From assembly GCF_036669915.1 (NCBI RefSeq), contig NC_089324.1, positions 919,344-983,343 on the forward strand: a stretch of 64,000 bases of DNA, given 5' to 3'. The position numbers were made by a program, and so were the translations under genes. The notes beneath the pieces are model-generated. The model saw only the letters and a program-made list of their open reading frames with translations. It made no database searches and had not been told where the DNA came from. Positions within the stretch are counted from its first letter, which is position 1. Each line of letters starts with the position of its first letter. The DNA is from Pocillopora verrucosa (Eukaryota; Cnidaria; Anthozoa; Scleractinia; Pocilloporidae). Shown in pieces: positions 10,339 to 63,408 of the stretch.

Positions 10339-11976
10339 TTAGTTACCTTGCTTTGAAATGGCCTTCAAATTACGTTTTCTGTTGTGAACACGAAAATGCT
10401 TTGAAAGGGTTGATCTGAAAAGTCAATATACATGACCATTATCATCACGTAACAAAAGCCAAGGACATCAAAGTGAATCTTCTGCATGATAGACTGTGCC
10501 AGTTTACCTTTCAGCAAATGCCATCCCACAGTCTGCACACCTGAAAGGTCGCTCCCCGGTGTGAGTGCGCATGTGCGTGGTGACAGAAGAGGACTGGGAG
10601 AAGCACTTTCCGCACACAGAGCATGCGTATGGTTTCTCTCCTGTGTGAGTTCGCACGTGTGTTATTAAGTTTGCTGATTGGGTGAAAGCTTTTGGACAGT
10701 GTGTACACTTGTACGGTTTTTCACCATTGTGTTTCCTCATGTGGACAATCAATGATGATTTGCGAGAGAAATCTCTTTTGCAGATATTGCATCGCGGCTT
10801 CTCTCGTCTCGTCTCGCGTTGTTCTTTGGAGTTGATAGTTACCTTTGAATTCCAAATTTTTTTAAAGGAAAACATGCATTATGTTTCGTAATTTTTTGTA
10901 CCAGTGCATCGTATTATTACTGCTCATTCACTTTCTTGTAATCTGGTAACAGTGGTTAATAATGTACATAAAAAAATTTGCGTTTCTGATTGGCTGAAAA
11001 CGAGTGCATTCTCATGTAACACGAGTGCAAATTACAAATAGGGCGCGCGCTTTCAAAATTCCGCCTCTTAACTATGTGTGATGTTTTTTCTTGTACATTA
11101 TTAATGATTAATAAAATGATATATTTTACAATTTGGTGTAATAAGCACTTGTAACTTTTCAAAGAGTAAAAATTGCACCTGCCCCACGGGCTCGTGAAAT
11201 TTTACTGACTCTGAAAAATTTATGCGTGCTTACTTAAACCAAATCTCACTCGAAATCATGTTATTACCTATACCGATTTTCTACAGTTCACCCGCTAAAC
11301 TCTGTTGACAACAACTGATTATCCCTTTGTGAAAACCATCTGATCTCCACAAAAATCCTTGCCCCCCACCCCATCCCCCAGCGTCAGATAAGGACTGGTC
11401 CCAAAACATTGTTTTATAGCAAGTGTCCCACAGTTTACAGGGCTCCTGAAAACGTACAATGTCTCACTCCCACCTTCCCCCCCCCCTTCCGTTCCCTTGG
11501 CACGTCCCTCTCAACCAATGTCCATTGCAATTATTTTGCAAGACTTTCAGGACCTATTTCTCCATCAGCAATCTAAGAAGCAGTTTTATTTTTCATATGT
11601 CCACTTTAAAAAATTCACTTTCATGAAAAGGCTAACGGCCCCGCTATGTGTTGTGCAATGTTACGTTTCCTAACACACTATGTTGAAGAAACACAAGAAT
11701 AACCATGAAGAGTAGCAAAGCACGCACTGGATATACGTTGAGAGGTGGTCTACTAATTTTATCACCTGAGAATTGATAAGCGATGCAGCTGCTGGACATG
11801 ACTCATGAGGATACTGTAGATACAGCGGGTATTGAAATACACCAGTTGCGCATGCACTTATCAGAGGAGGTGAAGTTTTTCCTGACACGTCCCCTTCGTC
11901 CATATAGCGTCTTGATTGATTGGGGAAGCCCAAGTATGATGGAAGAGCCTGAATGAATCGTATCTTTGGATGATGC
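10339..11976 (-). CDS. C2H2 zinc-finger protein gene 1 (four fingers; first exon not found)
   Basis: Minus-strand exons are 11766-11976, 10508-10842 and 10339-10414 (stop TAA at 10339-10341). The first encodes an N-terminal region rich in Tyr, Pro and Ser. The second carries three complete Kruppel-type fingers (CNIC..H, CTHC..H, CSVC..H) joined by TGEKP-type linkers, plus the Cys half of finger 4 (CADC). The third completes finger 4 with [11 protein letters not shown] and ends with a basic tail ([14 protein letters not shown]). Phases agree (0 after 11766, 2 after 10508). Exon 11766-11976 needs two bases from an upstream exon, so an initiator exon above 11976 is missing from the model. It is likely a nuclear DNA-binding transcription factor; the family assignment stops at C2H2. 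It is paralogous to the gene at 17415-19720, with the same intron position inside finger 4. Confidence 0.8.
10956..11104. mobile_element. 149-bp MITE with 13-bp terminal inverted repeats
   Basis: The ends are TTAATAATGTACA (10956-10968) and its exact complement TGTACATTATTAA (11092-11104). The interior block GATTGGCTGAAAACGAGTG recurs at about 51925-52060. It has no ORF and is inserted in the intron between zinc-finger gene 1 exons 10508-10842 and 11766-11976. Confidence 0.75.
11105..11765. other. remainder of zinc-finger gene 1 intron
   Basis: Non-coding. It contains C-rich low-complexity segments (about 11350-11400 and 11470-11500) resembling the complement of the dispersed G-rich repeats seen elsewhere in the window. 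No exon was detected. Confidence 0.5.
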
Positions 11977-17414: not shown

Positions 17415-19720
17415 CTAAACAAGCGCATGAGTGGTTTTGGATTTTCCTTCTGTGTGGACACGGTGGTGTTTTGCAAGTGTTGACCTGTATGAGAGATAAA
17501 GATTGAAACGATGAAGATGTTTACTGAGTTCTCTGTCGAAGGCTTCACGTTCACTCATATCACATTCGATCACACATCACTCTCTCACAATTGGGCTCCA
17601 TGTCACAAGCTTCACGCTGGGGGCATCGCGTTTCGCGCATCCTGTCTCGTGTTTCACGCACCATGCACTGTTTAAGGTTTCACGTTTACCTATCACGCAT
17701 ATCACTCACATTTCGATCACACATTACTCTTTTCACGATTGTGTCACACGCTTCACACCGTGCCAATCGCGTCTCCCCATCCATATGTGTGTTTCACGCA
17801 CCACGAATTCTATATCACACACACCAAATAATTTTAAAACCGCTTCCCACTATTTTAACCGTATTGCAAAACATTTCCAATGAAACAAGTTCCTCCCTCA
17901 GAAAAATTATTCTAACTATTGATCAAATGAAACCGCAAGAAAAAGCAGCCGATCTAATTAGAAAGAAAACCAGAAAATGTGTCTCATTATTTAATAACTA
18001 GGAAATAGCAGTCATTACATACCTGTCTGTAAAGCGTTTGCTGCATCTTTCGCATTTAAACGGTCTTTCACCAGTGTGTGTCCTCATATGGGTCTGCAGG
18101 GAATTGGACTGAGAAAAACCCTTCTTACATACGGTGCATTTGAAAGGTCGTTCCCCCGTGTGCGTGCGCAAATGGACAGTCAGATTACCAGATTGATTGA
18201 AGGCTCGCGGGCAGAAGAGACACTTGTATGGTTTTTCTCCACTGTGAATACGCATGTGGACTTTCAGTGCGGACGGACGCAGAAACATTCTTTGGCATTC
18301 TCGGCACGTTAGTCTCTTATCTCTTTTGGTATTTTCACCCTTAGCCTTCTTAGCCAGCGGTTGTTTTTTTACCACGGAAGATACTCCAGGGATATATGGA
18401 GAGAACCCAGGTTCGTAACTGTAGTGGAACGGGTTTACGCAAGGGGAATACGCTGGATGGTGATCATAGTGCTGATGATGCATCCCAAAAATGGGAATCT
18501 CTCTCTGACTTACGTTGGGAATTTCTGAGAATACTGGCCATTGATCGAGTACCGGTGTGCTATTGACAAAAAGTATGTTTCAAGTTTTAACCCTGTAACT
18601 TCTAAGAGTGATTAGCATCTAATCTTTCACCCCAAAATCAAACATTCATTCAGGGGCTTATCTACCTTTTGGACTTGTTGGCCTTCTTGAGAGATCTGGA
18701 AGCTTGGTAGCCTAATGTTTTAACATTGCGAGATTTATTCTTACTGCTTCTTTGTTATTTAGTAACTCGAAGAAATATCGGAAAGAAAGTCCAATTTTTG
18801 TTTCAACCTTTGCAAGAGTTGATAACTCAAAAGTCAAGCGGGCGGCAAAAATTGAAGGCCCAGACCGGCGCGGCTATGGCTGGCGATGTCTAGGTGATTA
18901 GTCAAAATCGTGGGACTCCGCACGTTAGCCTTGGTTTATCGCTATTTCTGTGTTTTTATTGGTTCACAGGCAATATTATCGGAGCTCATATCCCTTTGTT
19001 GTGTTAACTTTCTCACAGCAGTACAAACAAAACATTTTTTCTGTTTAAAGCAGAAATTGTGATCTTGGTTGTTTTCATTGAATCAATCATCATTGCATTT
19101 CTCTCGCGGTTGGCTATAAGCACGTAAACGTTTTGAAATACCTGTGGCCAACAAAAAAATGGGATTTAATTTTTCTGTTACCCACCTCATTTTCTTCACG
19201 AGTTTATCGAATATTTGTTGAATATACGTTGCTTTATGTTAGAATGAAAAGTGGTCTGTAATTTGTATATATTTCAACTTTTCACTAAGGAATTTACTTA
19301 GCAATGCTCAAGGTCAGCGCAGACCTCACAAGGTTAATTTCATAAAAAGTGTTTTTATTCTAAAAACGCATGAAAATTTTTACTGTCCATATGACGCTCG
19401 ACTGCCAACATCTGACATTGATATGCAGTCATGTCAACAGTGACGTCAGCGTTTTCGAAAAGCTCCGGTTCTGAAGCGGATTTTTGTGATCGGTTGACCT
19501 AAACACAGAAATACAGTAGCCTTGTTGTCAAAATCGGAGGAAAACTCCTCCGTATTTGAGTTTTCACACGTCTCTAGTGTAATGTAAGCAGTGGCTCACT
19601 GAAAACAATTAAACACCAGTATTCGGCTTACCTTTCTCGTCTGTTCCTGTTAGAACCACTGAATCCACTCTTATAATAAAACGTCGATGTGTCCATTGAT
19701 CTCTCATCGAAAGTTTCCAT
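17415..19720 (-). CDS. C2H2 zinc-finger protein gene 2, complete, 231 residues
   Basis: Minus-strand exons are 19632-19720 (start [13 protein letters not shown]), 18023-18559 and 17415-17484 (stop TAG at 17415-17417); phases 2 and 2 agree and total 696 nt. Residues 1-110 form a non-finger N-terminus with a His/Tyr/Pro-rich stretch (about 56-88) and a basic run ([11 protein letters not shown]) that may act as a nuclear localisation signal. Four Kruppel-type fingers follow: C115-H135, C143-H163, C171-H191 and C199-H219, with SGEKP/TGERP linkers. The last finger is split by the 538-bp intron after FTDR and completed by [11 protein letters not shown] sequence-specific transcription factor is the natural reading, but the target and orthology are unknown. 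It is paralogous to the gene at 10339-11976 and probably arose by tandem duplication. In this copy the N-terminus and fingers 1-3 share one exon. Confidence 0.88.
17541..17815. repeat. two-unit degenerate tandem repeat rich in TCAC/TCACGC
   Basis: Two units with a period near 150 bp share the order CACTCA..ATC, CGATCACACAT, CTCTTTTCAC/CTCTCTCAC and GTGTTTCACGCACCA. The tract is intronic, between the last two coding exons of zinc-finger gene 2. A similar short TCACGC-rich patch occurs at about 22385-22445. Confidence 0.6.
18583..18660. mobile_element. fragment of MITE family 1
   Basis: A short piece (TAACCCTGTAACTTCTAAGA, AGCATCTAATC, AATCAAACATT) matches the left portion of the family at 6197, 31262 and 52434. 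The rest of the element is missing. It is intronic, upstream of zinc-finger gene 2 exon 18023-18559. Confidence 0.5.
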
Positions 19721-21995: not shown

Positions 21996-24900
21996 TCAGG
22001 GACGGATCTTCATCTCCGATTTTGTTAAGAAATAGTCGTAGCCTTTCCAAGTATGCCAGGTTATTCCAGCTGCAAAATGTTCTGAGTTCTTATCACTTCC
22101 GTTGAGATAGAGTCCATTAAGACTTGCCTTATGACACACTCCGTGCCACCAACCGCTCTTGAAAAGTTTGGCGCAGTGGCCAGCACCATATTTATCGTTG
22201 TCTTGATCTTGTGTTGAGAATTTGTTGCCACTTTCAAAAGAGAACGAATCACCAGCATCGCCGTCTGTGAGAGGAAAACAATTTAAAGCAAGGAAGGACT
22301 TAGAATATTTAATAAATACAGATTGATCATTTTGTCAAGCTTACGCATGCGTTCTTCGTGCCCATGGCGACAAGTATTGAGTAATTTTTAAAACACTCAT
22401 ATCACGCAAAAGCCTTCATAACATATCACTCTAAACTCACGCAAAACTTTTACGAAATGGTTGTGGGAATGCGTTACGCATATGTCACGTACGTACGCTC
22501 TGTTCTAACACACAAACGCTTTTTCACCTGTGTATGTTCCACTGGTCATCAAAAACTTCTGGTCAGCGCCTGCCACCGTAAATCCTTTATAAACAGCAAA
22601 TCTGTTCGTTCCATCCGGGGCTCCCAAGTCGAATCTTAACGTGACGAGATTTTTCGCCAGTCGGTGAATTCTGTCCAATCCCAGCCAGAACTCTCCCGAT
22701 ACGTTACCGAATCCATTCTTGTATTCCACCCACGTCCGGTTGCTAAACCAAACCGAGCCGTCAAAACGCTTTTGGAGCACGGTCCAGCCCCCTTCCGCTG
22801 TTGTTTGGTCGCAGTAGACCGGAAACGAGCCCATGCCGTCTTCAGGGTTTATGGTATAAATACCACTGACCTTAAAACCTGCATTGTACAGCGCCGTGCA
22901 ATTGGAGTATGTTACTGAAATGAGAATGAGTAATTATGTTATTTTCAGAAGAGAGGATGATTAAGCTCAGAAATGGACCCAACCAAAGTAAGCTTTGCTC
23001 AAAATACGATCAAGCTGATTGGGGATTAAAATTTTTATCCACTTTCGCGATCCTGCGATTGTAAATCTTTTTGTGCCTGACAAAAAGTGAAAAAAGAATC
23101 CCACAGGTCTGATGCGTGTTTCAATTGCACACGCAATGCGTGGTATTGCACGTGCATCACGCGCGTGTTAATGCTGGTATGACCTGAAATTTGTTATTGG
23201 CGTCATTTGATTGCCTTTTTTAGCGGGAAGTACAGGGTGTATATTTCGATATTTCTTTTGCTAACCTGGTTGCGTTGGAGTTGGAGACGAAGTTTGAATC
23301 GGAGCCGAGGTCGAGGATGCACTTGGGATGATCACGTGGCCGTATCCTCCTCCGAAGCTACAGTTTTCAAGTCTGTTCTGCACAGCGGTTAGTTGTTCAC
23401 TCATGTTCATAACTTGAGCCCACAGTTTGGCGAGGTGATTGGTTTGGTCGAAAATGGCTGGGACAAAGCGCGTGTTATTGAGTATCTTGTTCAGTTGGTT
23501 GTTATCTGGTGAAAAAAAGCATCGGAAGTAAATCATGAGCTACCGTCAGTCTAACTGCAATTACAGAGTAGTCTATAATTATCTATAACGTAGTCTGTTG
23601 CATTTTACCCTCTTCACCTCCCCCCGAGCTTTTTATCTGGTTTCATTGGACAGCTCACTGATACCCATGACACTTTTGAAAATCCTGGAAGGTGAGAGGC
23701 ACTGTGAGAGGGAGGAACTTAACTAAAGAGTGGCTGTGCATTAACCCTAATCAGTGCTCGAATCCAGATCACTCAAAGCAGAGTTCAGCGCGCCAGGCTA
23801 CCCGCCGTCGTATCGCTTCTCCCACATCTGACCAGTAATAGTGAGGGTCAGTTAGTCGTCTCGAATATAATTTTATGCCTCTAATGCTGATAGGAATTTA
23901 ATTTGGTCTTTAAAAACACTCATTACGTCCGCGATTTACCAGTGCATTGATGAGGTGGCAGATGTGAAATTGTAGATGACACCTGGACAAATTGAGTCGG
24001 CGATGGACACACAGTAATGGTCTTTGTTGGTTGAGCTGTTGAAACAGGACTTGTCTGACACTTGGGATCTAGCAAATAAAATCAAAGGAAAGAAACACAC
24101 TAAGTGAAAGAAACTTCGGCGCTGCATAGATTCAGGTATTCCGTGTATAAAGCTGAGACCGTAATTACACTCGATGGACACTATCGTAGGTATGTTTTTT
24201 CGGTTTCTCATCTTTGTTTAGTCGTTCTGATATTCAGGCTAACAAACGTCAGACTACGTTTATTAAGTAGTATGATTCTGCACGCGGGGAAACTTTCTCT
24301 CAAATTTTCAAATGGAAGTTGCAAAAAAAATTAAAAAGCAAAACAAAAACCGAAACACAAGAGCATTAAGTTGTCTATCCAGGAATGGAACTTATCTTCT
24401 ATTCAACCAAAGGACGTATTATTATTTATCGCCTGGGGGTGAGGGTCGGTGTATTTTGAGGGGATATCATGGTTTCCAGGGGAAATGGAGATCAGTCTTC
24501 GCTAACAAAGTATACAGCGAGGGACATAGAAAATTGACTACTTATAAGATCAATAAGGGAGGATCATTTGAATACTACGGGGGGGGGGGGGAAATTAGGT
24601 AAATTTCATCGTGACAATACCAAAATCCTCTGAGTCCCCCCTTCCTTCCCCTAACGAAAGACTCCTAAAGGGAGAAGAGAGAACTGTTATTCACCGTTTT
24701 CATCAGTACAAACATAGACTTTCATTCTCATGTTATGCGTCGCACACCTCCCCCCTGAGGTCTGCTCCAGAGACCATCCACGGCCATTAGAGGTGGCTGA
24801 AAATATAAACAAAAACCGTTCAGTCACTTGAAGCAACACTTTGCTTCAACCAAAAGCAGTAGTTTAATGGTGAAATGATATTAAGAGTAAATATTGTGCA

Positions 24901-26409
24901 TATGTGCAGTTCTCCTGAACCATGGCAAATCGTTGGAAATGCATCATGCAAATTATTTGCCCTTTATTGACTCTTCCCATCATTAATTCGTTCCACTCTG
25001 TCTACTTCAAACCCCTGTGGGGTTGGAATCAAATGAGTTGCGCGGAATGGAGCGTTATTTATTTTTTTTTTGAAAAAAAGAAGAGCAAAATAGCTTTGCT
25101 TACCGATGAAATAGTACTCCTTCCCAGGCTCAAACTCCAACCCATCTGCGCCTACTGCGCTATACCGCTGAAATACTACCGTGAAGTAACGCAGTTGCAG
25201 CGGAGAGTCACACTTCATTAAAATTCTGTTTTGAGGTTTAGTAGTTTCTATTACGCATGTCTCGTATGCCTGTTCATCAACTATCCATAGATTTTCATAC
25301 ATTTTTTCCAGAGGAATGCTTCCCTCGACCGCTATCGGGATCATTGCGGGATTCGGGCACACAATCTTCACTTTACTCATTGGTAGAACTGCGAAAGAAA
25401 AGTTGTTTTGAAATCTGTGGAAAAACAAACAGCAGAAATTAATGAAAATAAGAATAAAACAGAACAATCCAGAAAATCAATTCTATCTTTAAAGTTTGGT
25501 TTCCTGTCAATTGCTTCCACCGATCAAGGTAGAAGAGACTAGCCATTATCGATCTCCTAGGGGGAGGGGAGAGGGGGGAGGGGGAAGGGGGGAGCGGGAA
25601 GCGGAGGGGGAATCGGGGGATTTCGGAGGGGGCAACTGCCAATAAGGGGGATAATTTGAATTCAGCAGAGCTTAATGGACGATCAGGTAAATTACATTGT
25701 GGCATAACCAATATCCTCTTATCCCCTCCGCAAGGCGATTGATCGTGATTCCTGAAGAAAGTGTTCTTCGTTAATTGCGGGCTGAAAAAAAATACACTGA
25801 AGAAATTGATAAATTGCGTTATTCAAGCTCTTCTTCTTGAAAGGAGCTGTATTTGCGCGGTATTGAATTTCCTTCGGCTTATTGCACCAACGTGGTAAGA
25901 GAAAACTCTGTTTGAATTGCCAGCCATCATGTGCATTCACTTTGAGTTAGAACAAACGTAACAGCTGTAGGAGGTAGTAACTTGAATACGAGATAAGAAC
26001 AGTAAAAACTTATCTTTTCAGTTTATAAATGTGTTTTGAATAATTCTGCTTCAGGGGATGAACTGTTCTGTTAAAGGTTACAATAGGTACGAATCAGATT
26101 ATAGTTTCTTGGAGCGAGTGTAACATTCATGCTCATTTTCAAGTTAATTTTTTTTTTGCGGTGTAAGATAAAATACTCATAGAAGTCCTATTGTAAAACG
26201 GCAATATGGACTTTTTATAGCGACCCTGCAGGCAATAACCCTTTAAGCAAAAGGGTAAGCATAAAACTTTTATTTTGTCAGATTTGTCTAATAACCACTT
26301 ACATTGGGTTAAGATCCGTCCATTCTACCGATGGATAAATTTTGTGCAGCTGCGATTCAGCAAACAGTAAATGTAAATGCAAAATTAAAACACGGCGAAG
26401 AATACTCAT
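21996..26409 (-). CDS. ephrin-domain + fibrinogen-related-domain secreted protein A, 514 residues
   Basis: Minus-strand exons: 26303-26409, 25104-25414, 24695-24796, 23940-24068, 23266-23505, 22528-22914 and 21996-22264. Intron phases are 2,1,1,1,1,1; total 1545 nt with stop TGA. Exon 1 gives a signal peptide (MSILRRVLILHLHLLFAESQ) and EWTDLNP. Exons 2-3 form an ephrin receptor-binding domain with IVCPNP, MYENLWIVDEQAYETC, MKCDSPLQL, LEFEPGKEYYFI and GGRCATHNMRMKVYVC. This order and all four canonical ephrin cysteines match the family. Exons 4-5 are a Ser/Thr/Pro linker starting DPKC, with an amphipathic segment near LWAQVMNMSEQLTAVQNRL. Exons 6-7 form a FReD: NCTALYNAG, SGIYTINPEDG, YCDQTTAEGGWTVLQKRFDG, GEFWLGLDRIHRL, Ca-site-like QDQDND, HCAKL, GWWHGVCHKASLNGLY. 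No transmembrane or GPI-type tail follows, so the product is predicted to be secreted. It is a paralogue of 58304-63408. Confidence 0.92.
24417..24660. repeat. G-rich dispersed repeat (family 3) in intron of ephrin-FReD gene A
   Basis: Begins TTATCGCCTGGGGGTGAGGG and contains GATATCATGGTTTCCAGGGG, a 14-G run near 24581-24594 and a C-rich right end. It lies between the exon encoding the ephrin G strand (24695-24796) and the linker exon (23940-24068). No coding content. Confidence 0.6.
25540..25740. repeat. G-rich dispersed repeat (family 3), second intronic copy
   Basis: TATCGATCTCCTAGGGGGAG is followed by a 100-bp G-rich run and a right end CCCCTCCGCAAGGCGATTGA, complementary in style to the GCC-type start of other copies. 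It is located in intron 1 of ephrin-FReD gene A. Confidence 0.6.
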
Positions 26410-36205: not shown

Positions 36206-37695
36206 CTCTTTATTCAGTTGCAAAAGTAGTTGAGACATGTCACACGACAAGCAACTGGTTCTCCATGAGAAATAGTTTATTTGTGGCAAGGATTCTTAAG
36301 CCGCTTGGTCATTTACACTCGATTTCTGGTTGGAAATACTAATTTTATCGGCGACATGTGCGGGAACAAAAATGATAACAGGCCCCGGAGCTGCATATCA
36401 TATTTGATGTAATTCAATGACAACTGGGTGCTTTGTAAATGTGACAAATGTAAACAGATGTGGAAGGCAGAAAGCCTACCAAATTTGGTCTGGTTAAATT
36501 GCTTCTGTATCCAAGGCTCTCAACATAATGATTTGACATTTGACAATTTCGTTTTATTTGCCTTGGTGCTGAGTTGTTGTAAAATTTATAAACGATCCTT
36601 ACTGTTTACTTTGTTTTCAATAATATTGGAGTTTTTCTTTTGGGGACTGAATGCGTGAGCTAATGTACGTAAATGTAAAACTGGAAACGCGGTCATTCAC
36701 GCGTAGAAGTTTGCGTTTTTCTTCTTTTTTGTATGCGCTCCGAATCTGTTTGGCCAAAGAATGTACTCTGCATTTTACGTAAAATCTTTCAAGATGTGAA
36801 AACATTTAGAGACATCCTTAAAAATTCATTTTTCTTTTCACTTCAGACATGCCAAAAAAGGGAGAGAAAATAGAACCAAAATTTATAAAATGGAGAAAGG
36901 TTGTGTAGCTTTGTGATGAATGTTATACTCAGCCGGAATGGTTAATTCCCCGAAGCTACCAGCAAACCTAATTTTTTTCCCAGCGATTGATTAAAGTTGC
37001 AGATTAGCTCTCAAACAATGGTTTACTAGTTCATGTCAGTTTTAGCAGGATATCCTGTCGAGTGCGATGGATATTCGAGCTTCATTATTGACAAAAAGCT
37101 CCTCAAATTATTTTGTTTAGATTAAATATTTATACAGTTGAAAAAGCCGTTCATGAGAAATTGAGAGATATTTCGAATCACTCTTCGGGAATCTGTGAGA
37201 TAAGTTTAGGTAAATAAGTTGATTATAAGTTAAAAATTAAAATCAGGGTAAAAGATTTTTGCCAGCGCTTCAGTTTCTTCTTTAGTGGACATGTTGATGG
37301 TAAACCAACTCTCTTTCTGACCTCTCATTTTGCAAAATACACAAGTTAATTAAGCCAGCTGGATTTTTCTTTTTTGAGCCGATAAGTACCGTTTTTAGCA
37401 ATAGACTGACAAATGAGACTATCACTACATCAGCGCAAAGACTTTTCGGCCAATTTTATTTTTCTGGATCAAAAATCTTAAAGTCGGTATCTTTGACTAG
37501 ATTGTTACTTCAGTCAACTATCGCCGCATTCACTTGCTGGCCAGCTGCCAGCGTGCGAGGGAGGAAACACCGCTTGTAAACATCGTATTTGGCGGGTTTT
37601 GCTCTGTCGAGTTCCGCACTTTCTTAGGTTTGGTGCGCCTTTGGTTTTGGTTAGCTTTCGCGTTTTTTGTTGAGGTTTTATACAATACCTGTACT
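36206..37695. other. upstream region of GPCR 1
   Basis: No coding exon was recognised. It is AT-rich and should contain the 5' untranslated region and promoter of the intronless GPCR starting at 37696. No core promoter motif can be assigned with confidence. Confidence 0.4.
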
Positions 37696-38712
37696 ATGGA
37701 ACTCCCTTTTCGCAACTCTGGCCTAACTGCCTTCCAATCCACCTCACTTTTGTTAATCGATATCATTGCCGTCGGAGGAAACGCTTTTATTTGCATGGCA
37801 ACTGCACGAAATCCCAGCCTTCGCACGAGCACAAACTTGTGGGTGACCGCATTGGCTATTGCGGACTTGATCCGTTCTTGTGTCGCTGCACCTCTGACAG
37901 TGGCAACTTTAATTTGTGGTCGCTGGAATTATGGATCCGGTGGTTGTATCATTCAAGGATTTTTCACGTACTATCTAACCCTAGTCTCCCTCCTTACAAT
38001 GGCGTTCATGGCCGTCAACAGGTACTGCAGAGTGGTTAAACCGTCTCTCTATTTGAAGATTTTCACTAGAAAGCGATGCGTCACAGCTCTGATATTCCTG
38101 TGGACACTAATGGCTTTGACAGTGTCATTTCCTGTGCTGGTTGGATGGGCAGAATTTGCTTTTCACGGTGGTTACGCAGCTTGCGTTTTGCATTTCCATA
38201 AACCAAGTCTCACTGTGATATTTTTAACTTTGGACGCCGGCCTTATTTTACTTCCATGCACTCTTACAATCGCCGGTTGCTACTTCAAAGTATCACGAGC
38301 AGTACGTGAACATAACGATCAGGTCGTATCATCTCTCCAGGGAACCTTAAAGTCGAACTCCCAACTTATAAACCGAGCGGGCGTCGAGGAAATTCGCGTC
38401 ACGAAAACACTTTTCTTACTAGTTTCAACGTTTACTCTTTGCTGGATTCCAGCCTATGTAATCGGGTTTTTAAGCCGTGGCAATTTGGTTTACATCTCGC
38501 CTCAAGGTGCCCTTGCTGTTACATTTCTTGTGGGTCTGAACTCCGCTTGTAACCCCTTTATATACGGCTACATGAATCGTTCGTTTCGAGTCGAGCTTTG
38601 GAAGCTTATCCCTTGTAAAAGGAACGAAAACCAAGTTGTTCCGCACGTTCATTCGAAGGACACTTCACCGCAGTCTTACACAAAGAGCCTTGCTGTCGTT
38701 GTATCTACTTAG
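37696..38712 (+). CDS. intronless class A (rhodopsin-like) GPCR 1, 338 residues
   Basis: A single open frame from ATG (MELPFRNSGL) to TAG with seven hydrophobic segments. Class A landmarks are present: N29 in TM1, D57 (AIADL) in TM2, C84 for the ECL2 disulfide with C163, and N108-R109-Y110 at the end of TM3 in place of DRY. CWIP (249-252) is in TM6 and NPFIY (286-290) in TM7, followed by a helix-8-like MNRSFRVELWKL. The NRYC variant and overall length recall the melatonin-receptor-like part of class A, but the ligand cannot be read from sequence; melatonin/opsin-like orphan is the cautious label. The reading frame stays open upstream of this ATG, but that part is not receptor-like, so the ATG at 37696 is preferred. 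The protein acts in the plasma membrane with heterotrimeric G proteins. Confidence 0.9.
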   Translation: MELPFRNSGLTAFQSTSLLLIDIIAVGGNAFICMATARNPSLRTSTNLWVTALAIADLIRSCVAAPLTVATLICGRWNYGSGGCIIQGFFTYYLTLVSLLTMAFMAVNRYCRVVKPSLYLKIFTRKRCVTALIFLWTLMALTVSFPVLVGWAEFAFHGGYAACVLHFHKPSLTVIFLTLDAGLILLPCTLTIAGCYFKVSRAVREHNDQVVSSLQGTLKSNSQLINRAGVEEIRVTKTLFLLVSTFTLCWIPAYVIGFLSRGNLVYISPQGALAVTFLVGLNSACNPFIYGYMNRSFRVELWKLIPCKRNENQVVPHVHSKDTSPQSYTKSLAVVVST

Positions 38713-43408: not shown

Positions 43409-43789
43409 CTTTTATGCTCGGGGCAGGGTGTACTTTCTAATGGGGATGTGCCATTGATAGGGTCGTATTTTCAAAACTGGATTGACTATTGTTGGGTTGC
43501 ATTTCAATTGAGCTACTAGAATCGGGTGGCACCTAACGGGATTTTGGGGGTGAGGAAATTCTGGTTTGTAGTCTCAATGGGACCTATCGTAGGCTGCCTG
43601 ATACCAAACTTGACCTCCTAGGTCTTACCCTAACGACATGTCTCTTTTCTAATGGTAAGAAAAGATAATGACCTCGTTGTGCAACTTAACGATACAGAAC
43701 ACAGACTAATACGAGTGTGCGTCTTAATTTAATTTTCCCTTTATCCTAGAGCTAAGGCTTCGGAGATCATTGGCTCTGTTTGAGACAGT
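43409..43789. other. upstream region of GPCR 2
   Basis: No exon visible; presumed promoter and 5' untranslated region. Nothing specific was recognised. Confidence 0.4.
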
Positions 43790-44791
43790 ATGAGCGACGG
43801 TATTGACTTGTTACTCCTGTGCTTATTCACAATCCTGATTCCAGTATGTCTCGTATTTAATGCTTTGGTTTTCGCTGTTATTTATCGGAGCAAATCATTG
43901 CGAATTCCCATGAACAACTTGATCTTCAACTTAGCGATAACAGATTTTGTGATTGGTTTATTCATCTTCCCTCGTCACGTGCTTTTCAGTGTCATTGCAT
44001 TACGTCATCCAGTAGACACCACAGGTAACTACTTTTGCAAGTTCGTAACAGGGAGTGGTACCCTATGGACTAGTTCCACGGCGTCTGGGTTTTTACTCAT
44101 TGCCATCGCCGTCGAACGCTATACGTCCATAATGGTTCGTAGCCGAAGGGCGCCGCTTACAACCTCGCGCATCAATGCCGTTGTGGCGTTTTGTTGGCTC
44201 TCAGCTTTCGCGGCGAACTTGCCAACGCTTATCGTTTTTGCCTACGACGAAACGATTGATTTCTGCGTGGAAAACTGGCCAAACTGGGTTTCGCCCAAGG
44301 CTTATGTGATATGTATCTTCTTCCTGGGCATAAGCTCAGTTCTTGTGATGTTCCCTTTGTATTTTCGAATCATTTACACGCTATGGTGCAGACAACGCAG
44401 GGCAACGGAAATCTCACAGGCGGCCAGATTACGCGCACGCAAAAACATCACCAAATTGCTAGTTTTGGTGACTTTTATTCACACAATTTGTCGTTTGCCT
44501 AACTATATGACTTATCTATTAACCTACTACGCTCCCTCAGTCAACTATGGTTCCAACACATACAACTTTACAGTTCTGTTGATTCTGCTGAACTCCGCTG
44601 TGCACCCGTTCTTATTGTGTTGGAACATGCAGGGCTTTAGAAGACCCCTGTTTGTGTTGTTTTGTTGTTGCCAAGCCAATAGGATATTTACTGAGCCTGA
44701 GCTTGAGCCCTCCCACGTGAGTACTCCGCCCGTCAGAGGATCTGCCTTCCTTCTAAGAACCCCAGAACAAGCGCGCCCACGAACCACATGA
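43790..44791 (+). CDS. intronless class A (rhodopsin-like) GPCR 2, 333 residues
   Basis: A single exon from ATG (MSDGIDLLLL) to TGA. Seven hydrophobic segments carry N24 (TM1), D52 (LAITDF, TM2), C83 paired with C159, and E109-R110-Y111 in place of DRY. CRLP (234-237) stands in place of CWxP, and HPFLL (272-276) replaces the TM7 NPxxY. A Cys cluster C292-C294 after TM7 is a plausible palmitoylation site. The third intracellular loop and TM6 entry (RARKNITKLLVLVTF) resemble peptide or amine receptors of cnidarians. The family within class A is uncertain. It is not closely related to GPCR 1. The altered TM6 and TM7 motifs could change constitutive activity. AATAAA at 45112-45117 is a possible polyadenylation signal. 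Confidence 0.9.
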   Translation: MSDGIDLLLLCLFTILIPVCLVFNALVFAVIYRSKSLRIPMNNLIFNLAITDFVIGLFIFPRHVLFSVIALRHPVDTTGNYFCKFVTGSGTLWTSSTASGFLLIAIAVERYTSIMVRSRRAPLTTSRINAVVAFCWLSAFAANLPTLIVFAYDETIDFCVENWPNWVSPKAYVICIFFLGISSVLVMFPLYFRIIYTLWCRQRRATEISQAARLRARKNITKLLVLVTFIHTICRLPNYMTYLLTYYAPSVNYGSNTYNFTVLLILLNSAVHPFLLCWNMQGFRRPLFVLFCCCQANRIFTEPELEPSHVSTPPVRGSAFLLRTPEQARPRTT

Positions 44792-45296: not shown

Positions 45297-48200
45297 TTAG
45301 TTCAGTGGAGGATACACTAAACAATTCACTGAATAAGTGTTGTCGCTTACTCGTCCCACGATGCGCCATTGTTCATTCAAATAATCATAATATTCGATTG
45401 AAGTTACTCCACGCCCACCAAAACAATATATCTTATTTTCATAGACCACGTGACCGAACTCACTTCTGTTGTCGTTTAACTGCGCAGGAGCAAATACCCA
45501 TTTGTCTTCCTTAGGGTGATAAACCTCCATGCTCCCTAAACTTTGTCGATCACTGCGTCCACCGAAGACAAAGATACTACCTGCCCAGGTTACCACGCCC
45601 ATACTGAAACGAGGTTCTAGAAGGCCTGGCAGCAATTTCCATTTTTGAGATCGTATGTGAAAGCTTTCCATCGAGTTCAGCGGTCCATCGTCATTAAGTC
45701 CCCCAATGACGTAAATCTTTCGACCCAAAATAGCCACACCTATGAGAGAAAATTTAAAACTTCAAAGGCCTACCATATCTTTTTAAATGAGGGGCTCCAC
45801 TATGGTGAAGGAAAATCGGTTAAGCGTGTAGGTACACTTATACCTAAGAAAAAACCTCCAGACTGGGAAATTTTTCTCACTCTTTGCTTACACCAATAAA
45901 AATTGTCAAAAACAACTTATTCGATCGGCATTTGTCGTTTTAGAAAAGAAAGGACGAGTGAACAGCGTTTGAGAAAGAGGGATCCAGAGTAAAATACGAA
46001 GTGACAATTAGTACTTAATGGGCGCCTAGTTTTAAACCGGAAAAACAACAACAACACCAACAACTCAAAAAGGAATCACCAGAACGTAATGCAGGACAAG
46101 AAGACGACAGAAAGAAAAAATACAACGAAAAACAGAGAAACCAGGAAGAGAAGATTACCAGTGCATCTCCTACGTCGATTCATTTCAGGTAGTGAGCTCC
46201 ATACTCCATGACAAACATCAAATTTGTGGGCAGACATGTCGTCTGGCTTCCCACCAAACACGTAGATGTTGTTTCTATCAGAACACACTCCTGACTCCCG
46301 TACGGCACGCCCTTAAATGACAAACATACTGTCACGTGATAGTTCACATCCATTTTAAAATAGAAATCTTAGGCTGACATAATTAGTCCTGGGGAGGGGG
46401 GAGGGCGGGAAAGCTTAAAGGGTCAATTCATAATTTATTTCATAGACTTTTCTCAGAAAACTAATTTTATCATTGTCAAAATTTTCCTTTTAGTAACACT
46501 TTGATCCTTCCCCCAACCAAAATGTCCCAAAGTGCTAAAGTCCGTCTCTAGACATCTTTAGCTTAAAAACATGATCCAACAGACACGGCTAATCGTTGAA
46601 CGTTCGCGGTACCGATAGAAAAAACCAAGAGAAGAGAAAAACTTACCATCGCCAACCCAAGTCCATTTCTTTGTCACAGGGTTGAATCTGTTCACTGCCC
46701 TCCTGGACACGATATAAAGCTCACCCTGCACAAGAAATGCACAGTGGTAATTATCTTCTTTACTTGCATCGCTAAATGACGTCAGCTTGGGGCAGGGAAC
46801 GCATGCACGTTGCTCCTCATCAAAGGTGTCAACCCGGTTTGTCTTCATACTGAACAGGTAAACGATCTTCCGAGAGTTTCGAGGTTTTCCTGAATCGTTA
46901 TTTTCTTGTGACAACTTCCTAGCAGCCAGAGCATCTTCCACGTCCTTGCGGCATTTCCCTTCGCCTTTCACGAGTTCGGGAAGTATCCGTGTTTGAAGGA
47001 ATTTTGTAGTGATTTGACGGAAGCGGATGGTTTTCAAAACTGTGTCCAGCTCTTTGTTCCTAAAGGATGATATGGAGACAGGCCTGACCAGTTTATTATT
47101 AGCTCTAGGTATTGTCACCAATTGAGATCGATTTGATGATTTCGCTGCCCTTTGTCTAAAAAAAAAAAATCCATTTACGAAAAAAAGAGGCTAGAGTCCA
47201 AACTCCCTAAAAATCTGGAGATTTATTTAAACAAACGAAGACGTGGATAGTCTAAACGTGGTCGTCGATGAAAATTGTTACGGCCACGAAAGACGAAACA
47301 TTTTAAGAGAGAAGCTCCGTAAAACGTTTTAACTAGCTGCCAAACCTGTGAGTGTACACTAACAAAACTGTGTTGTGCGTAGAGAACAAATTGTTAAAAA
47401 AAATTGTCGCCTGAATGTCATGTTTTGTAAGAAAGTAGCATCGAAAAAACTTGAAACTGCACAAGGGCGCTGAAAAAGGCGTGAGAAAAATTAAGGGAAC
47501 TAAAGAAACCGAAAAAGGCGCTAATGAAGAACAAATTACAAACAAACGCTAACGAGGTAGTGAAAAATAATACTTAAAATCAAACACTGACAAAAAGAAA
47601 CCAAATGAATTTTGCCACTAAAATAACTTAATGAAAGATAACCAAAAATCTACATCTTACACTATGTACCGCTTGACTGATTGGGAAGACAGCGCAGGAA
47701 ATATTAAAGCCTTTTTCCCGTTTCTGCTTCTAACTGTATAGATCATTCATTAAAATTAATTATCAGCTCCTCTTCTAACCTTTTTTCAGGATCGTGTTTG
47801 TACCATTTCCACACCGCTTCATACACTTTTTCCTCTTTTCTGACCTTTAGACTGTTACTTCCGAGTAAGGAAGTTATCTGATGCGCTGACAGCTTGACAA
47901 AATCATCTTCGTTCACGATTTGTAAGAAGTTCCATTCCATGTATTCCATTGTTTTGAGTTTTAATTGCTCGAGGCCAAGAGTCTCCGCTAGTTTGTGATA
48001 CCCCACACAATTTTGGTTTCTCAAATGATCGATAGCAAATCGTTCGCAAGCAATGACAGCCTCTTCGATCTGAAGGAGTCCATGAATAGGTAAAGGAATA
48101 TGTGAGTGAACAAATAACTACATGAATTTAAAAAGGGAACAAGTTTCAATTCCAAACGCAACAATTTCCTGAACACTGTGTGATACATAATTTTACGCTT

Positions 48201-58303: not shown

Positions 58304-61300
58304 ATGTTAAAACCACAGCAATTCGTGAAATTCCTGTTCTTGGTATCTGTCTCCTTTGCTTCTGCTGGTTATCATCCATCTTTACATTGGGACCCGCGGA
58401 ATCCACTGTGAGTATTGATTACAAAAAAGATCTATTGTTATCTCCACGCGTACATGTTACTGAGGAAGCCAACTCTTATTACGTAACTGAAAGTTCGTTC
58501 GAAGAATCTTTCAGAAATATTAAATTTCTTCTTTATGGTATATCGAGGCAAGCTGTTGAAAGCCATTAGTTATGGTAACTAAACATATTGGAAGGAAAGT
58601 GCCAGTTTTTTTTTCCACTTAACTAACTGTAATGCATTGTTCCAACTTCTCTCTTTCCACCATAAATTGTGCTTTTGTTCACTGTTATAGTTTGGCACTA
58701 TAATTTGTTTTAAATTGACTTGTTTGATTGAAAATATGATCGCCTTGAGAGCTTTCCCGAACATCCACTACCTGTTTTGGTTGCATGCATGCTAACAGCT
58801 TTTTTACATTATGCACTTACGCTGGTTCGATTACTTTTCTAGCTAATAGTTGCACTACGATTGTTGCTTATTTATTGACACTTATTTTGCAAGGTACATG
58901 TATGCTTGTAAATCGATCTTACTTATCAACCTGTCTTTTGACTGATTATTTGCCTTCTTTTTATTTATTTGTATACGTACTTGATTACTTTACAGATTTA
59001 AACAAAACGTGGAGATTAATGTTCTTCAAAATTCTAAACTCAACGTGTTGTGTCCAAACCCGGGAAGCGTCCTGCAGGATCAAGAATCCGGTATCCCACA
59101 AGAACTCATGTACGAAAACATGTGGATTGTCACTAAAGAAGAATATGATATGTGCAAAGTAAACATATCAGCTGGCAGAAGGATCTTAAGTTGTGATAGT
59201 CCTTTGAAGTTGAAATATTACCAAATGGTCTTTAGAGCATACAGTCCTCCACGCCTAGATGAGTCAGTGGATATCCGTTTAGAGTTTGCACCGGGAACAA
59301 AATATTACTTTATAGGTAGGGCCTTGAGTAGATTATTCATAGACTTTGTCTAGCCTACTTATCGTCCCTCTTACAACAATACCATCCGCAACGAAGCCTA
59401 CGCTCATCCTCTAAACTACTTTATACTGTCCCTACTGTGAACTCTGTGACATACGGTGAACGTGCCTTTTCTTTCTCCGCACCTATATTATGGTCTACCG
59501 GATTCTTTTAAAAATACAACATCTCTTTTATCTTTTAAATCTGCCGTCAAAACATTCTTGTTTCGGAAATTTTATTTTTGATTTATTTTGCGAGGAACTG
59601 TACCTAGCTTTCATGTCACCTGGTTCTTAATTAGTTATTTGATTTATTTTATTTATTACTGCTATAAGAAACATTTTGTAAGTTTTTGACGAATTTGTTT
59701 TTTCTATACAGTAATGTAAACACATTGAGTTTTCTAAATGCACCCAAAAATCATACTGTATTGAAAGTCATACTGTATTGAAATTATCTAATATTCATCT
59801 AATACTGATCTAATATTTATCCTTTTAATTCCTCAGCAACTTCAAACGGAATGAAAAATTCACTGTCAAATTACGATGGAGGACATTGTTTGACGTCTAA
59901 TATGAAGATGGTGATTCATGTCTGTAATGGAAGCTCTGGTGAGAGACGTATTAAATTGTTATACTCGTTTTTCTCCTTAGGAGGGGTAGGTTATGGTGCC
60001 TTCCTTCCCCTCCTTCGTTATGATAGTCGTAATTGTAAAAACACTTGTTTTTGTTTTGTTTCTCATAGATCCCAAGTGCATCGACGCTCCTAAAATTTCT
60101 CCTTCTAGTTCAGTCTCTTCGTGTGCTCCTGTCACAGAGAGAGTGCATCACTCTTCAACACCAAGTCTGAGCAGTAGAGGATCTTCTTCTGTTCTGGTTC
60201 ATCAGTCTAGTCCAACTCAATATTTCTCAACAACGACTTTCGCTGGTCTGACAAATACTACGCTTGCTCTAAAATCGTCAGCCACTGTCCAGTGTCAGGG
60301 TAGGACTTTATGAGTCTGTTGTATGATCGCATTCATTTACCGTACGAATCGCTCCACGTTTCGCGAACTTTTGCGGCTGACAAAACTAAAGCAAAACGCA
60401 AAAGGGCCTGAAAAGTGAATAAATAGCGACATTTTTCGCTCTGGTGAAGACGCAAATAAACGATATGCTTAGAAGTTTCGTTCCAGGCCTTCTTGTGACT
60501 AGGGTTCAAAACATTGCACGTTAGCCACTCAACTACCCTTTCTCTTCTCTATAAAATAAATTTGAAAAAGGCGGATACTTTACCAATCATTCTTTTTCTT
60601 TTATTCAACAGAATTTAAAGCTTCCAGCTCAGAAGGATTCCTCTCATTATTCGCAAACCAATCTCGTCAGTTAGCAGAAATCTGTAACTACACTTCCATC
60701 ATACCAGATCTGGAGCTTATACTGCAAGGGATTAATTCTTCACAAACGGTGACACAGGAAGCCCAGACTGGACATGAAACAAATGTAACACAGAACTGTA
60801 CCAAGGAACAAAATAGCGCTGTCGTAGCTCAAAATGCACTCATCGCACCAGCTTGTTCCCTTGGACATCGTGCTCCAGGTAAGGTGTTAAAATTTCAATG
60901 TTAGGGCAGTTTTCAATTGAGGTTCGAAAGTTATCCGTGATTGCATTGGTTTTGCCTTAATTCGCTCTCTAATTGGTTAAGAAAACTCGCGCCACTCTCT
61001 CAACCAATTAAAAGCAAAACTAACGCCAATCATGACTCGGTCGCCAGCGTTTTCCCGCACTTTAGGCAGTTTGGCTGTTTTTTCCTTTGAGTTCTCTCTG
61101 GCTCTTACAGATGTGTTTCTTTCTTCTGATTGGCCACTGCGATTAATTTGGTTTTCGTCATACGACACTCAATCGAAAAGCGCTCCAAATGTGAATTCTA
61201 CACTCTAACCTGACCCACAAGGAGCGGGTTTCTATCGAGTGCCGTGAAACCAAGATCATACAAATCACAAACAGCTAATCAGATAATAGGATTATGTCAC

Positions 61301-61342: not shown

Positions 61343-63408
61343 TCGATGGGAGAGTATAGCAGGTAATTTAGTGTTAACAACTGGGTTGAAAACGTAAATT
61401 AGCCACCGTAAAGGCTTTTTAGCTTTTTTACCCTTTACGGTGGCTAATTTACGTTTTCAACCCAGTTGTTAACACTAAATTACCTGCTATGTCACAAGGA
61501 GCCAAGGAAAATGAAATGTAAAAAGAAGAAAACTGCCGGAAGCGTAGGAAAACGCGTCTTAAGTTTTCTCTCGCGACTACAGGAAACAAAACATGTATAG
61601 GATAGAATACCAAAAGCATAGTACTTATGCAAGGCTCTGCAAGTTCTAAAGACACTTGTTTTTTTCTTAAAGTCTATCTGAATAGTCAATGTCAGTTTTC
61701 GTCGACAAGTCATTGGCAAACTTTTCCTTCCGTGCGTTGCAAAAACTATTTTAGTAATACAGTAGCCTCCGTTTGGGTTGAAAATATGCTAATAGATTCA
61801 TCTTGTGAAGTTGTTTATTTCTCGAAGCCCACATGCAGCTCTTCTCGAGCTATAATCTCGACAAACTATATTGTGCTAACAGATAATATGAGCTGATAGA
61901 TATCTGAGCGCATTACCACAACTTCGGCGCGGAATTACGCAGCGTTAAACATAACCTTGCAGCCTTATTGACTACTTTAACTGCATGCTTTTCTTCTGAA
62001 GTTCTTCCCAGCTGTGATGCACTTTTGTTATCTGGCTACACACTTAGTGGTATTTACCGTATCGATCCCTTGGATGGAAATGGAGGATTTGGAGTGAACT
62101 GCGACAACGAGAACGGCGGAGGAGGTTGGTCGATAATTCTAAGACGATATGATGGTTCCTTAGATTTCGATCGCGGGTGGTCTGCCTACGTGGAAGGCTT
62201 AGGAGATCTAACAGGAGAGTTTTGGTTAGGCTTGGAGAAAATGTATAGACTCACTGGTGGCTCGTACTTCAACTTGAGATTCGATCTCGAATCCTCGAAT
62301 GGAATCAAGAAGTACGCAGAGTACGAAGGATGTCTACTGGACAAGGACCGAAAATATAAGATAACTGTTGGAAGTTATTCAGGTGAGAAATGACACAAGG
62401 GATGAAATTTATGGCGGCTGCCAAAACGCGAGAAATACGAGATATTTAAACTGAGGCTAAGCTTTTAACTTTTTTGACACCATCATTGTTGTGTTCAGCA
62501 TACATCTAGCAGATTTTTTTCTTTATAGTAGAGAGTTTCTGGCATCAATTTAGTCATAGTTTTCTAACATTTGACTGTAAAGAATCTCGTTTGAAAATAT
62601 TCATTTCTCATTGCCCGACCGAACCTTTTTTTTTTTTTTTTCCTTTTTTGTTTATAAAAATTTAAAAAAAGGGAAGACAAGTGTGATTCACTACCTAGAG
62701 TATAATTAAACCTGGATGTTTACAGAAAAAACCTTAATGTAGACCTGGGATATAAGAAGACTCCTGCAGGAGGTCAAAAGTGACATGCAAATAACTAAGG
62801 AAAAATTGATCAAAGCAGTCGGCTTAGAAAAATTTTTTACCCAAACAAAATAGATCAATATCAGTATCTGGGCAACTGCCCACCTACCCCTCTCCTAACC
62901 CAACATTAACCTTAACTTGTTGTCACTTGACTGTTATTGAGTCAGGGGAGGGGTAGGTGGGCAGTTGCTCAGACACTGATATTGATCCAACCAAATTACC
63001 CCATCCCCACCCCCACCTCCTTGGTTGATTTTGGTCTTTTTTTCCACCTTTTGAACGACTGACCCAGCCACATCCACGAAAGGGAAAGCGACGGAGTCGT
63101 AACAATTTATGGGAATGGCCATAATAGATTTGCTTTTTCCTTTTGCAGGCAATGCGGGAGACTCGTTTTCGTATCACAGTGGGATGAAATTCTCCACTAA
63201 AAATAAAGACTATGATCAATCCAGCTTGAAGTGCGCTCAAGTTGCCGGTGGCGGATGGTGGTTTAATAACTGTCAACGCGCATGCCTCACAGGAAGTTAC
63301 GAGAATGGCACGCACAGTTCTCAAGGAATTGTGGGCATTCAATGGCAGGCGTGGACTGGGGCTAACTACTCTTTGTCCAAAGTTGAGATGAAAATAAAAC
63401 CAGCTTAA
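58304..63408 (+). CDS. ephrin-domain + fibrinogen-related-domain secreted protein B, 554 residues
   Basis: Exons: 58304-58407, 58996-59315, 59837-59938, 60069-60299, 60612-60878, 62002-62382 and 63149-63408. Phases are 2,1,1,1,1,1; total 1665 nt with stop TAA. Exon 1 gives a signal peptide (MLKPQQFVKFLFLVSVSFAS) and LHWDPRNP. Exons 2-3 form the ephrin receptor-binding domain: FKQNVEINVL, NVLCPNPG, MYENMWIVTKEEYDMC, RILSCDSPLKL, LEFAPGTKYYFI and GGHCLTSNMKMVIHVC, with all four family cysteines. Exon 4 is a Ser/Thr-rich linker beginning DPKC. Exon 5 holds several N-x-S/T sites and a helical segment. Exons 6-7 form the FReD: SCDALLL, SGIYRIDPLDG, NCDNENGGGGWSI, RRYDGSLDF, GEFWLGLEKMYRL, KCAQVAGGGWWFNNCQRA. 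No anchor sequence follows, so it is predicted to be secreted. Expected partners are Eph-type receptors (ephrin part) and glycans or protein ligands (FReD part), by family knowledge only. AATAAA at 63438-63443 is a likely poly(A) signal. Confidence 0.93.
60930..61200. repeat. dispersed repeat related to 5390-5800
   Basis: Shares AAAACTCGCGCCACT, AGCGTTTTCCCGCACTT and TACGACACTCAATCGAAAAG with the pair at 5390-5800. It sits in the intron between the fifth and sixth coding exons of ephrin-FReD gene B. Confidence 0.6.
61293..61500. mobile_element. palindromic hammerhead-family insertion with exact 13-bp TSD
   Basis: TATGTCACAAGGA at 61293-61305 and 61488-61500 is an exact duplication. The insert starts with the family tail (GGGGTAAGTTTCTAAAGAAA). 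It then carries a minus-oriented body followed by the plus-oriented body, making a hairpin with arms of about 65 bp around 61418. The hammerhead core itself is missing at the junction. It lies in intron 5 of ephrin-FReD gene B, and the exact duplication suggests a recent insertion. Confidence 0.82.
62853..62988. mobile_element. foldback element (family 2), 136 bp
   Basis: Left arm GATCAATATCAGTATCTGGG continues to CCACCTACCCCTCTCCTAAC. The right arm is its near-perfect complement, ending CAGACACTGATATTGATCC. The loop is about 35 nt. It is located in the last intron of ephrin-FReD gene B, about 160 bp before the final exon. No ORF. Confidence 0.78.

Follow-up and report, generated by a model that had tools for sequence, protein, structure and literature searches.

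In ficolins the N-terminal part of the protein is a collagen-like stalk, in techylectin-5A (TL5A) it is short, and angiopoietins, the ligands of Tie receptors, are secreted proteins made of a coiled coil and a fibrinogen-related domain (FReD). For ephrins, one survey, in the part of it available, describes all cnidarian paralogues as transmembrane, and the available part of PMC6485061, a text in which, as in that survey, the word 'fibrinogen' is absent, gives a transmembrane (TM) region for 55 cnidarian ephrins, the cnidarian total not being stated, and for 64 of 114 non-bilaterian ephrins. Since the nature of the TM-less members is not described in that part, proteins joining an ephrin domain to a FReD may sit unrecognised in the set. 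The available part of PMC12549020 describes an expansion of fibrinogen-related proteins (FREPs) in a sea anemone and mentions no ephrin fusion, and according to that of PMC9743535 Endozoicomonas of corals have ephrin genes, while ephrin-like receptor genes are expanded in the host. Here we analyse gene A, which lies on the minus strand of a 64,000-nucleotide stretch of the Pocillopora verrucosa genome (the window; G000:C13:919344-983343 of a 353-Mb, 52-contig genome), together with two further genes, B and C. Each of the three holds an ephrin domain and a FReD on a common exon plan, with no recognisable membrane anchor. Judged by sequence alone, the genome is very probably that of an anthozoan: one GFP-family exon, of 74 matches, has amFP486 as its nearest PDB entry, with further GFP-like proteins next, and proteins of this type come from sea anemones and corals.

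An earlier note, made from the letters of the window, had read gene A as one chain of signal peptide, ephrin domain, Ser/Thr-rich linker and FReD. Rebuilt base by base, gene A consists of seven exons that give, as that reading requires, a single open frame of 514 codons (514 aa) with no internal stop and with all six introns bounded by GT and AG. Both domain calls held when searched against Pfam: Ephrin (PF00812) matches residues 27-168 with 81.3 bits, far over its cut-off of 25 (E 8.7e-23), and Fibrinogen_C (PF00147) matches residues 299-514 with 198.1 bits, far over its cut-off of 22 (E 2.3e-58); no further Pfam family was matched up to E 1. The features by which the ephrin domain had been recognised are all present, namely the WxxxNP start (WTDLNP), the strand NMRMKVYVC and the four cysteines (C20, C54, C69 and C122), which are invariant in an alignment of nine of the ten ephrins found, C3a having been omitted as nearly identical to C3b. 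Among PDB entries, the ephrin part is best matched by ephrin-B1/B2 (E 4e-13 to 2e-12), ephrin-A5 being a much weaker match (E about 0.002), and the FReD is nearest to ficolin-1, with TL5A fifth in the list (E 2e-51 to 4e-50). The description of the linker stood in part: it does have the Ser/Thr content but is not solely of that kind, as a perfect run of heptads with Cys at its end lies in exon 5. For the junctions 25104|24796 and 23266|22914 the prediction has comparative support.

Searching gene A against the flanking DNA and the other ephrin regions recovered B and C, both on the contig of A. Our hand-built models give proteins of 554 aa (B) and 520 aa (C), each from seven exons as in A, with intron phases 2,1,1,1,1,1 in all three genes and every exon limit at a GT or an AG, an agreement that is partly one of choice because A guided our placing of the exon limits in B and C. 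In Pfam, B matches Ephrin with 74.3 bits (E 1.3e-20) and Fibrinogen_C with 194.5 bits (E 2.9e-57), and C matches them with 79.6 bits (E 2.8e-22) and 163.8 bits (E 6.9e-48), respectively; all four scores are over the cut-offs, and only these two families were matched in B and C up to E 0.1. Exon 4 starts with DPKC in A and B and with DPTC in C. When the three genes are compared in pairs, their ephrin exons are 45-57% identical in amino acids, their linkers 23-36% and their FReDs 41-51%, exon 5 being similar between B and C and resembling them weakly in A. The proportion of synonymous differences (pS) is near saturation (0.68-0.87), and that of non-synonymous differences (pN) stays below it for all pairs and regions, above all in the two domains, with pN/pS of 0.35-0.51 in the ephrin part and 0.45-0.49 in the FReD part; since pN lies below a saturated pS in both parts, both halves look constrained. 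Judged by these sequences, A, B and C are a family of three ephrin-FReD genes, in a genome that also has ephrins with different C-termini.

A chance neighbourhood of ephrin and FReD genes was considered and rejected, because three of the ten ephrin loci have a nearby FReD and because the exon plans agree. For each ephrin, about 0.004 exon-6-like FReDs would be expected on its own strand in the 5 kb downstream, an estimate based on 559 first-look exon-6-like FReD candidates in 353 Mb, 150 of them scored; in the three loci counted, B and C are not independent since they are neighbours. Two further observations concern the structure of these genes. If intron 3 of gene A were retained, a stop would follow two codons (Gly-Glu) past the last full codon of exon 3 (window 24687-24695, minus strand), which would yield a short, ephrin-only secreted form; in gene B the equivalent read-through continues much further than in gene A. 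In addition, a head-to-tail tandem duplication of 4,818 bp with 99.96% identity (G000:C13:981214-990844, starting at window 61871 and running past the end of the window) has given second copies of B's FReD exons and of exon 1 of C, and may be either a recent event or an assembly artefact.

At least ten ephrin loci are known in this genome (A, B, C, C1a, C1b, C3a, C3b, C3c, C3d and C4), a lower bound because the profile search gave nine and missed B. A TM-like stretch was found in six of the seven loci without a FReD, and no FReD lies near any of these seven in the surrounding DNA examined. In four of the six TM-type loci (C1b, C1a, C3c and C3d), as in A, B and C, exon 3 is followed by a phase-1 intron, behind which comes a stalk exon with a D-P/T-x-C start (DPRC, DPRC, DPEC and DTNC, respectively), although in C1a the donor after exon 3 would be GC, not GT. 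C3a and C3b differ, in that DPKC/DPRC continues from exon 3 without an intron and is followed by a TSP1-like exon and then by a strong helix; we call this exon 'TSP1-like' only, because the copy that was scanned, that of C3b, scores 14.3 bits in Pfam against a TSP1 cut-off of 21.6 (E 0.048). The helix-encoding open reading frames (ORFs) of C1b, C3a and C3b fit phase-1 acceptors, and C4 is a divergent ephrin whose match is confined to one exon. A splice-filtered scan for a membrane-anchor exon in or behind A, B and C found none, the same scan recovering the true helix in three of six controls. Unfiltered, the scan for TM-like ORFs gave none in A, none in C and one in B, which is a read-in through the intron before exon 4, and found such an ORF downstream in five of six ephrin-only controls (C4 not included), missing the helix of C3d that is visible in the sequence. 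The earlier note's view that gene A has no membrane anchor is supported, and A, B and C all end with the FReD plus zero or one residue. In none of the three is there a recognisable membrane tether of the kind that normally holds ephrins at the cell, and a glycosylphosphatidylinositol (GPI) anchor appears unlikely.

Because the phase-1 intron also precedes the DPxC/DTNC stalk exon of four TM ephrins, we infer that the anchor exons of a TM ephrin were exchanged, behind the stalk exon, for linker and FReD exons. An exchange behind the stalk would be the simplest history, in the direction that we suppose, and these genes are a good example of exon shuffling, given that stalk exon and phase-1 introns are shared. 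The genome is very rich in FReD genes, with at least 187 matches (150 of 976 first-look candidates scored). They lie in large clusters on G000 contigs C12, C1, C3, C8 and C6, some with internal stops. One ordinary FReD gene, L032, read by eye, has a signal peptide, a coiled-coil-like exon and a FReD split over two exons, and would be a fitting type of donor for the linker and FReD exons. Against the 20 other FReD loci of the tree that follows, mostly available as pieces the size of an exon, the linker of gene A gave no convincing match (best E 0.20). In a tree of FReD exon 6 (23 rows, being A, B, C and 20 other FReDs hand-picked from the genome's listed matches) B and C are grouped with support of 98/90 and A lies outside in the best tree; a constraint uniting A, B and C was not rejected in the approximately unbiased test (p-AU 0.41). 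Similarly, A, B and C form no clade in the best tree of the ephrin part (10 rows), and the constraint was not rejected (p-AU 0.42).

Based on these observations we propose, with a probability of about 0.55, that A, B and C encode a secreted, two-headed, surface-localised Eph ligand that arose by exchange of anchor exons and in which the coil and the FReD cluster the ephrin heads. The membrane-anchor exons of a TM ephrin would have been replaced, after the stalk exon, by a linker or coil exon and two FReD exons. A single transcript would then encode an N-terminal ephrin head, a Ser/Thr-rich stalk, with a short coiled coil in A, and a C-terminal FReD. The hydrophobic start of each exon 1 is most naturally read as a signal peptide and, since no anchor was found, secretion by way of this peptide is likewise the natural reading. 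Through the coil and the FReD the chain would form oligomers and be held on a surface (acetylated glycans, microbes or matrix), and the clustered ephrin heads could engage Eph receptors without a ligand-bearing neighbour cell.

In exon 5 of gene A, a stretch of 28 residues has hydrophobic residues at eight of eight a/d heptad positions, the last of them Cys, a pattern reached by 8 of 1000 shuffles; heptads and Cys together point to a disulphide-linked oligomer, for A only. Its FReD keeps the DQDND stretch and the CH...NGLY...FA...GY positions when aligned with ficolin-1 and TL5A, which we take to be the calcium and acetyl sites of those lectins. Of the three, gene A alone is a plausible acetyl lectin, since pocket residues have been lost in B and C. 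By eye, no collagen-like Gly-X-Y run was seen in A, B or C. On the receptor side, the genome has 27 matches to the Eph ligand-binding domain, two of them with an internal stop, and candidate receptors therefore probably exist. Twenty-three of the 27 lie in two clusters (G000:C9:12.27-12.58 Mb and C6:9.8-11.3 Mb).

Several findings weigh against the proposal of one family of clustered Eph ligands, besides the guided choice of exon limits mentioned above. The ephrin half and the FReD half of A each resemble other genes more than they do B or C: in the FReD exon, identity reaches 57% with ordinary FReD exons against 42% with B, and in the ephrin part it is 51-52% with the TM ephrin C1a against 45-49% with B and C. 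For this reason a single fusion event is not established; one fusion followed by evolution at uneven rates or, in A, an independent acquisition or a replacement would both be possible. The coil test on exon 5 was no better than shuffles in B (775 of 1000) and C (963 of 1000). In the FReDs of B and C the pocket H is replaced by Q, the aromatic positions are missing and the calcium motifs are altered, and a lectin function common to all three genes is therefore unlikely. Finally, the loop by which human ephrins enter the Eph pocket is not clearly conserved (A has SAVGADG), so that Eph binding is not predictable from sequence.

This last point also speaks for a different view of the ephrin part, that it has lost Eph binding and is merely an adhesion module of cupredoxin fold. 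We consider this unlikely, as the ephrin part is constrained about as much as the FReD and the TM ephrins of the same genome have Eph-binding loops that are equally short or shorter. No better placed is an opsonin-like bridge, in which the FReD would bind microbes or algal cells and the ephrin head would dock them on Eph-bearing host cells for uptake: the ficolin/TL5A-like FReD of gene A, with its pocket residues kept, and the Endozoicomonas ephrin hypothesis, as given in the available part of PMC9743535, would suit such a role, but pocket residues are gone in B and C. A soluble antagonist, although still doubtful, deserves somewhat more weight. The product would here be a monomer or low oligomer that blocks Eph signalling, or Eph-directed attachment by others, with the FReD only setting its place. 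Soluble unclustered ephrins are usually poor agonists, and the genome has many Eph-type domains. Furthermore, the ephrin-like genes of coral Endozoicomonas have been proposed, in the available part of PMC9743535, to aid host entry, which would give the host a reason for a decoy. The heptads and the Cys of gene A, which suggest oligomers, speak against an unclustered blocker.

The alternative to which we give the least credence is that the gene models have merged neighbouring genes, one for an ephrin (exons 1-3 or 1-4) and another, with a start of its own, for a secreted FReD protein. In A a stop does follow shortly after the donor of exon 3 (TDENGE, then stop), and gene C has an ATG upstream of exon 5, in frame, from which the pyrimidine tract of the intron is read as the signal-like stretch MCESQGCKFILFFSFSPFASA; a weak signal-like stretch (MIYFRCFF) is likewise found upstream of exon 5 in A. 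However, a single plan of seven exons suits all three loci, whose domains are 41-57% identical, an alternative first exon is not conserved, no ATG lies upstream in the exon 5 ORF of B, and a signal-like ORF across exon 4 of A meets a stop at once when spliced to exon 5. In addition, exon 4 is ephrin-side by homology, and in each of the three models the frame continues from its donor into exon 5.

Table. Exons of genes A and B, and locations of gene C and of two related ephrin loci
Feature	Position	Strand	Content
Gene A, whole model	window 21996-26409	minus	rebuilt base by base; 7 exons, 514 aa
Gene A exon 1	window 26303..26409	minus	start codon, signal-peptide-like stretch, WTDLNP; donor GTAAGT
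Gene A exon 2	window 25104..25414	minus	bulk of ephrin domain
Gene A exon 3	window 24695..24796	minus	end of ephrin domain, NMRMKVYVC
Gene A exon 4	window 23940..24068	minus	Ser/Thr/Pro-rich stalk, begins DPKC
Gene A exon 5	window 23266..23505	minus	coiled-coil-like heptad segment with Cys at its end, followed by Ser/Thr linker
Gene A exon 6	window 22528..22914	minus	N-terminal part of FReD
Gene A exon 7	window 21996..22264	minus	C-terminal part of FReD (DQDND calcium-type motif, CH..NGLY), stop
Gene B exon 1	window 58304..58407	plus	signal-peptide-like, HWDPRNP
Gene B exon 2	window 58996..59315	plus	ephrin
Gene B exon 3	window 59837..59938	plus	ephrin end
Gene B exon 4	window 60069..60299	plus	DPKC Ser/Thr stalk; frame-keeping donor GTAGGA
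Gene B exon 5	window 60612..60878	plus	linker
Gene B exon 6	window 62002..62382	plus	FReD
Gene B exon 7	window 63149..63408	plus	FReD end, stop
Gene C	G000:C13:989215-994620 (window-equivalent 69872-75277)	plus	outside window, 6.5 kb past B
C3a, C3b	G000:C3:6019703-6022620 and 6030902-6032320		near-identical ephrin genes; TSP1-like exon WSDWSECSNGLQRRKC between ephrin exons and TM-like helix

Other ORFs of the window were read by eye. Two long single-exon GPCR-like ORFs lie between A and B (37501-38709 and 43784-44788, plus strand), and the minus strand carries zinc-finger ORFs (10507-10878 and 18001-18579) and BTB/kelch-like ORFs (45300-48925).

The earlier note knew of no described protein with this combination of domains, and none turned up in the literature: titles and the beginnings of abstracts yielded no published report of an ephrin-FReD protein, subscription papers and protein databases lying outside the search, and automated database entries may well exist. 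In a scan for bacterial relatives, an alignment of three ephrins was run against genome contigs and gave 44 pattern matches, none of which was confirmed; as such a scan needs short conserved stretches, this does not contradict the published Endozoicomonas ephrins. The ephrin-FReD genes are comparatively well supported and are, by sequence, a variant of the ephrin family with no recognisable membrane tether and with an architecture that we did not find in print; their function may be that of the ligand proposed above. Three ephrin genes that carry a FReD, show no recognisable anchor and are maintained as a family would be exceptional, and the swap of a membrane anchor for a FReD would make a contact signal secreted and multi-headed. 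With such a family one could test directly if an ephrin that is secreted by nature is able to signal, and A, B and C would link the Eph pathway to the large lectin-type family of FReD genes in this genome. More speculatively, and we hold this to be rather improbable, anthozoans may possess a diffusible branch of Eph signalling, in which lectin-anchored, self-clustering ephrins, made by exchange of anchor exons for FReD or TSP1-like modules, would sense glycans, microbes or symbionts through the FReD and report to an enlarged set of Eph receptors.

Compared with class-B-type ephrins (PF00812; human ephrin-B1/B2), the three genes share the full receptor-binding domain, a signal-like start, the WxxxNP motif, the canonical cysteines and a Ser/Thr stalk, and differ in having no detected TM helix, probably no GPI anchor, and a FReD at the C-terminus. 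The same-genome ephrins C1a, C1b, C3c and C3d are alike in exons 2-3, the phase-1 intron and the DPxC/DTNC stalk exon, and the TM ephrins of this genome have a membrane helix where A, B and C have the FReD, C3a and C3b with an intronless DPxC and a TSP1-like exon before the helix. The Endozoicomonas ephrin-like proteins also have an ephrin domain, with neither TM nor GPI detected by the authors according to the available part of PMC6993872, but they are bacterial, and the available parts of PMC6993872 and PMC9743535 mention no FReD. With the secreted lectins ficolin-1 and TL5A, the genes have in common a complete FReD, in which A keeps the DxDxD and CH..NGLY..FA..GY motifs, whereas the N-terminal part of A, B and C is an ephrin domain. 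In angiopoietins a coil is combined with a FReD, as would be the case in A, the only one of the three genes in which the heptads are found, and a ligand of receptor tyrosine kinases would be a further analogy; unlike in angiopoietins, however, the proposed receptor-binding head is the ephrin domain, and the FReD is closer in sequence to that of ficolin and TL5A.

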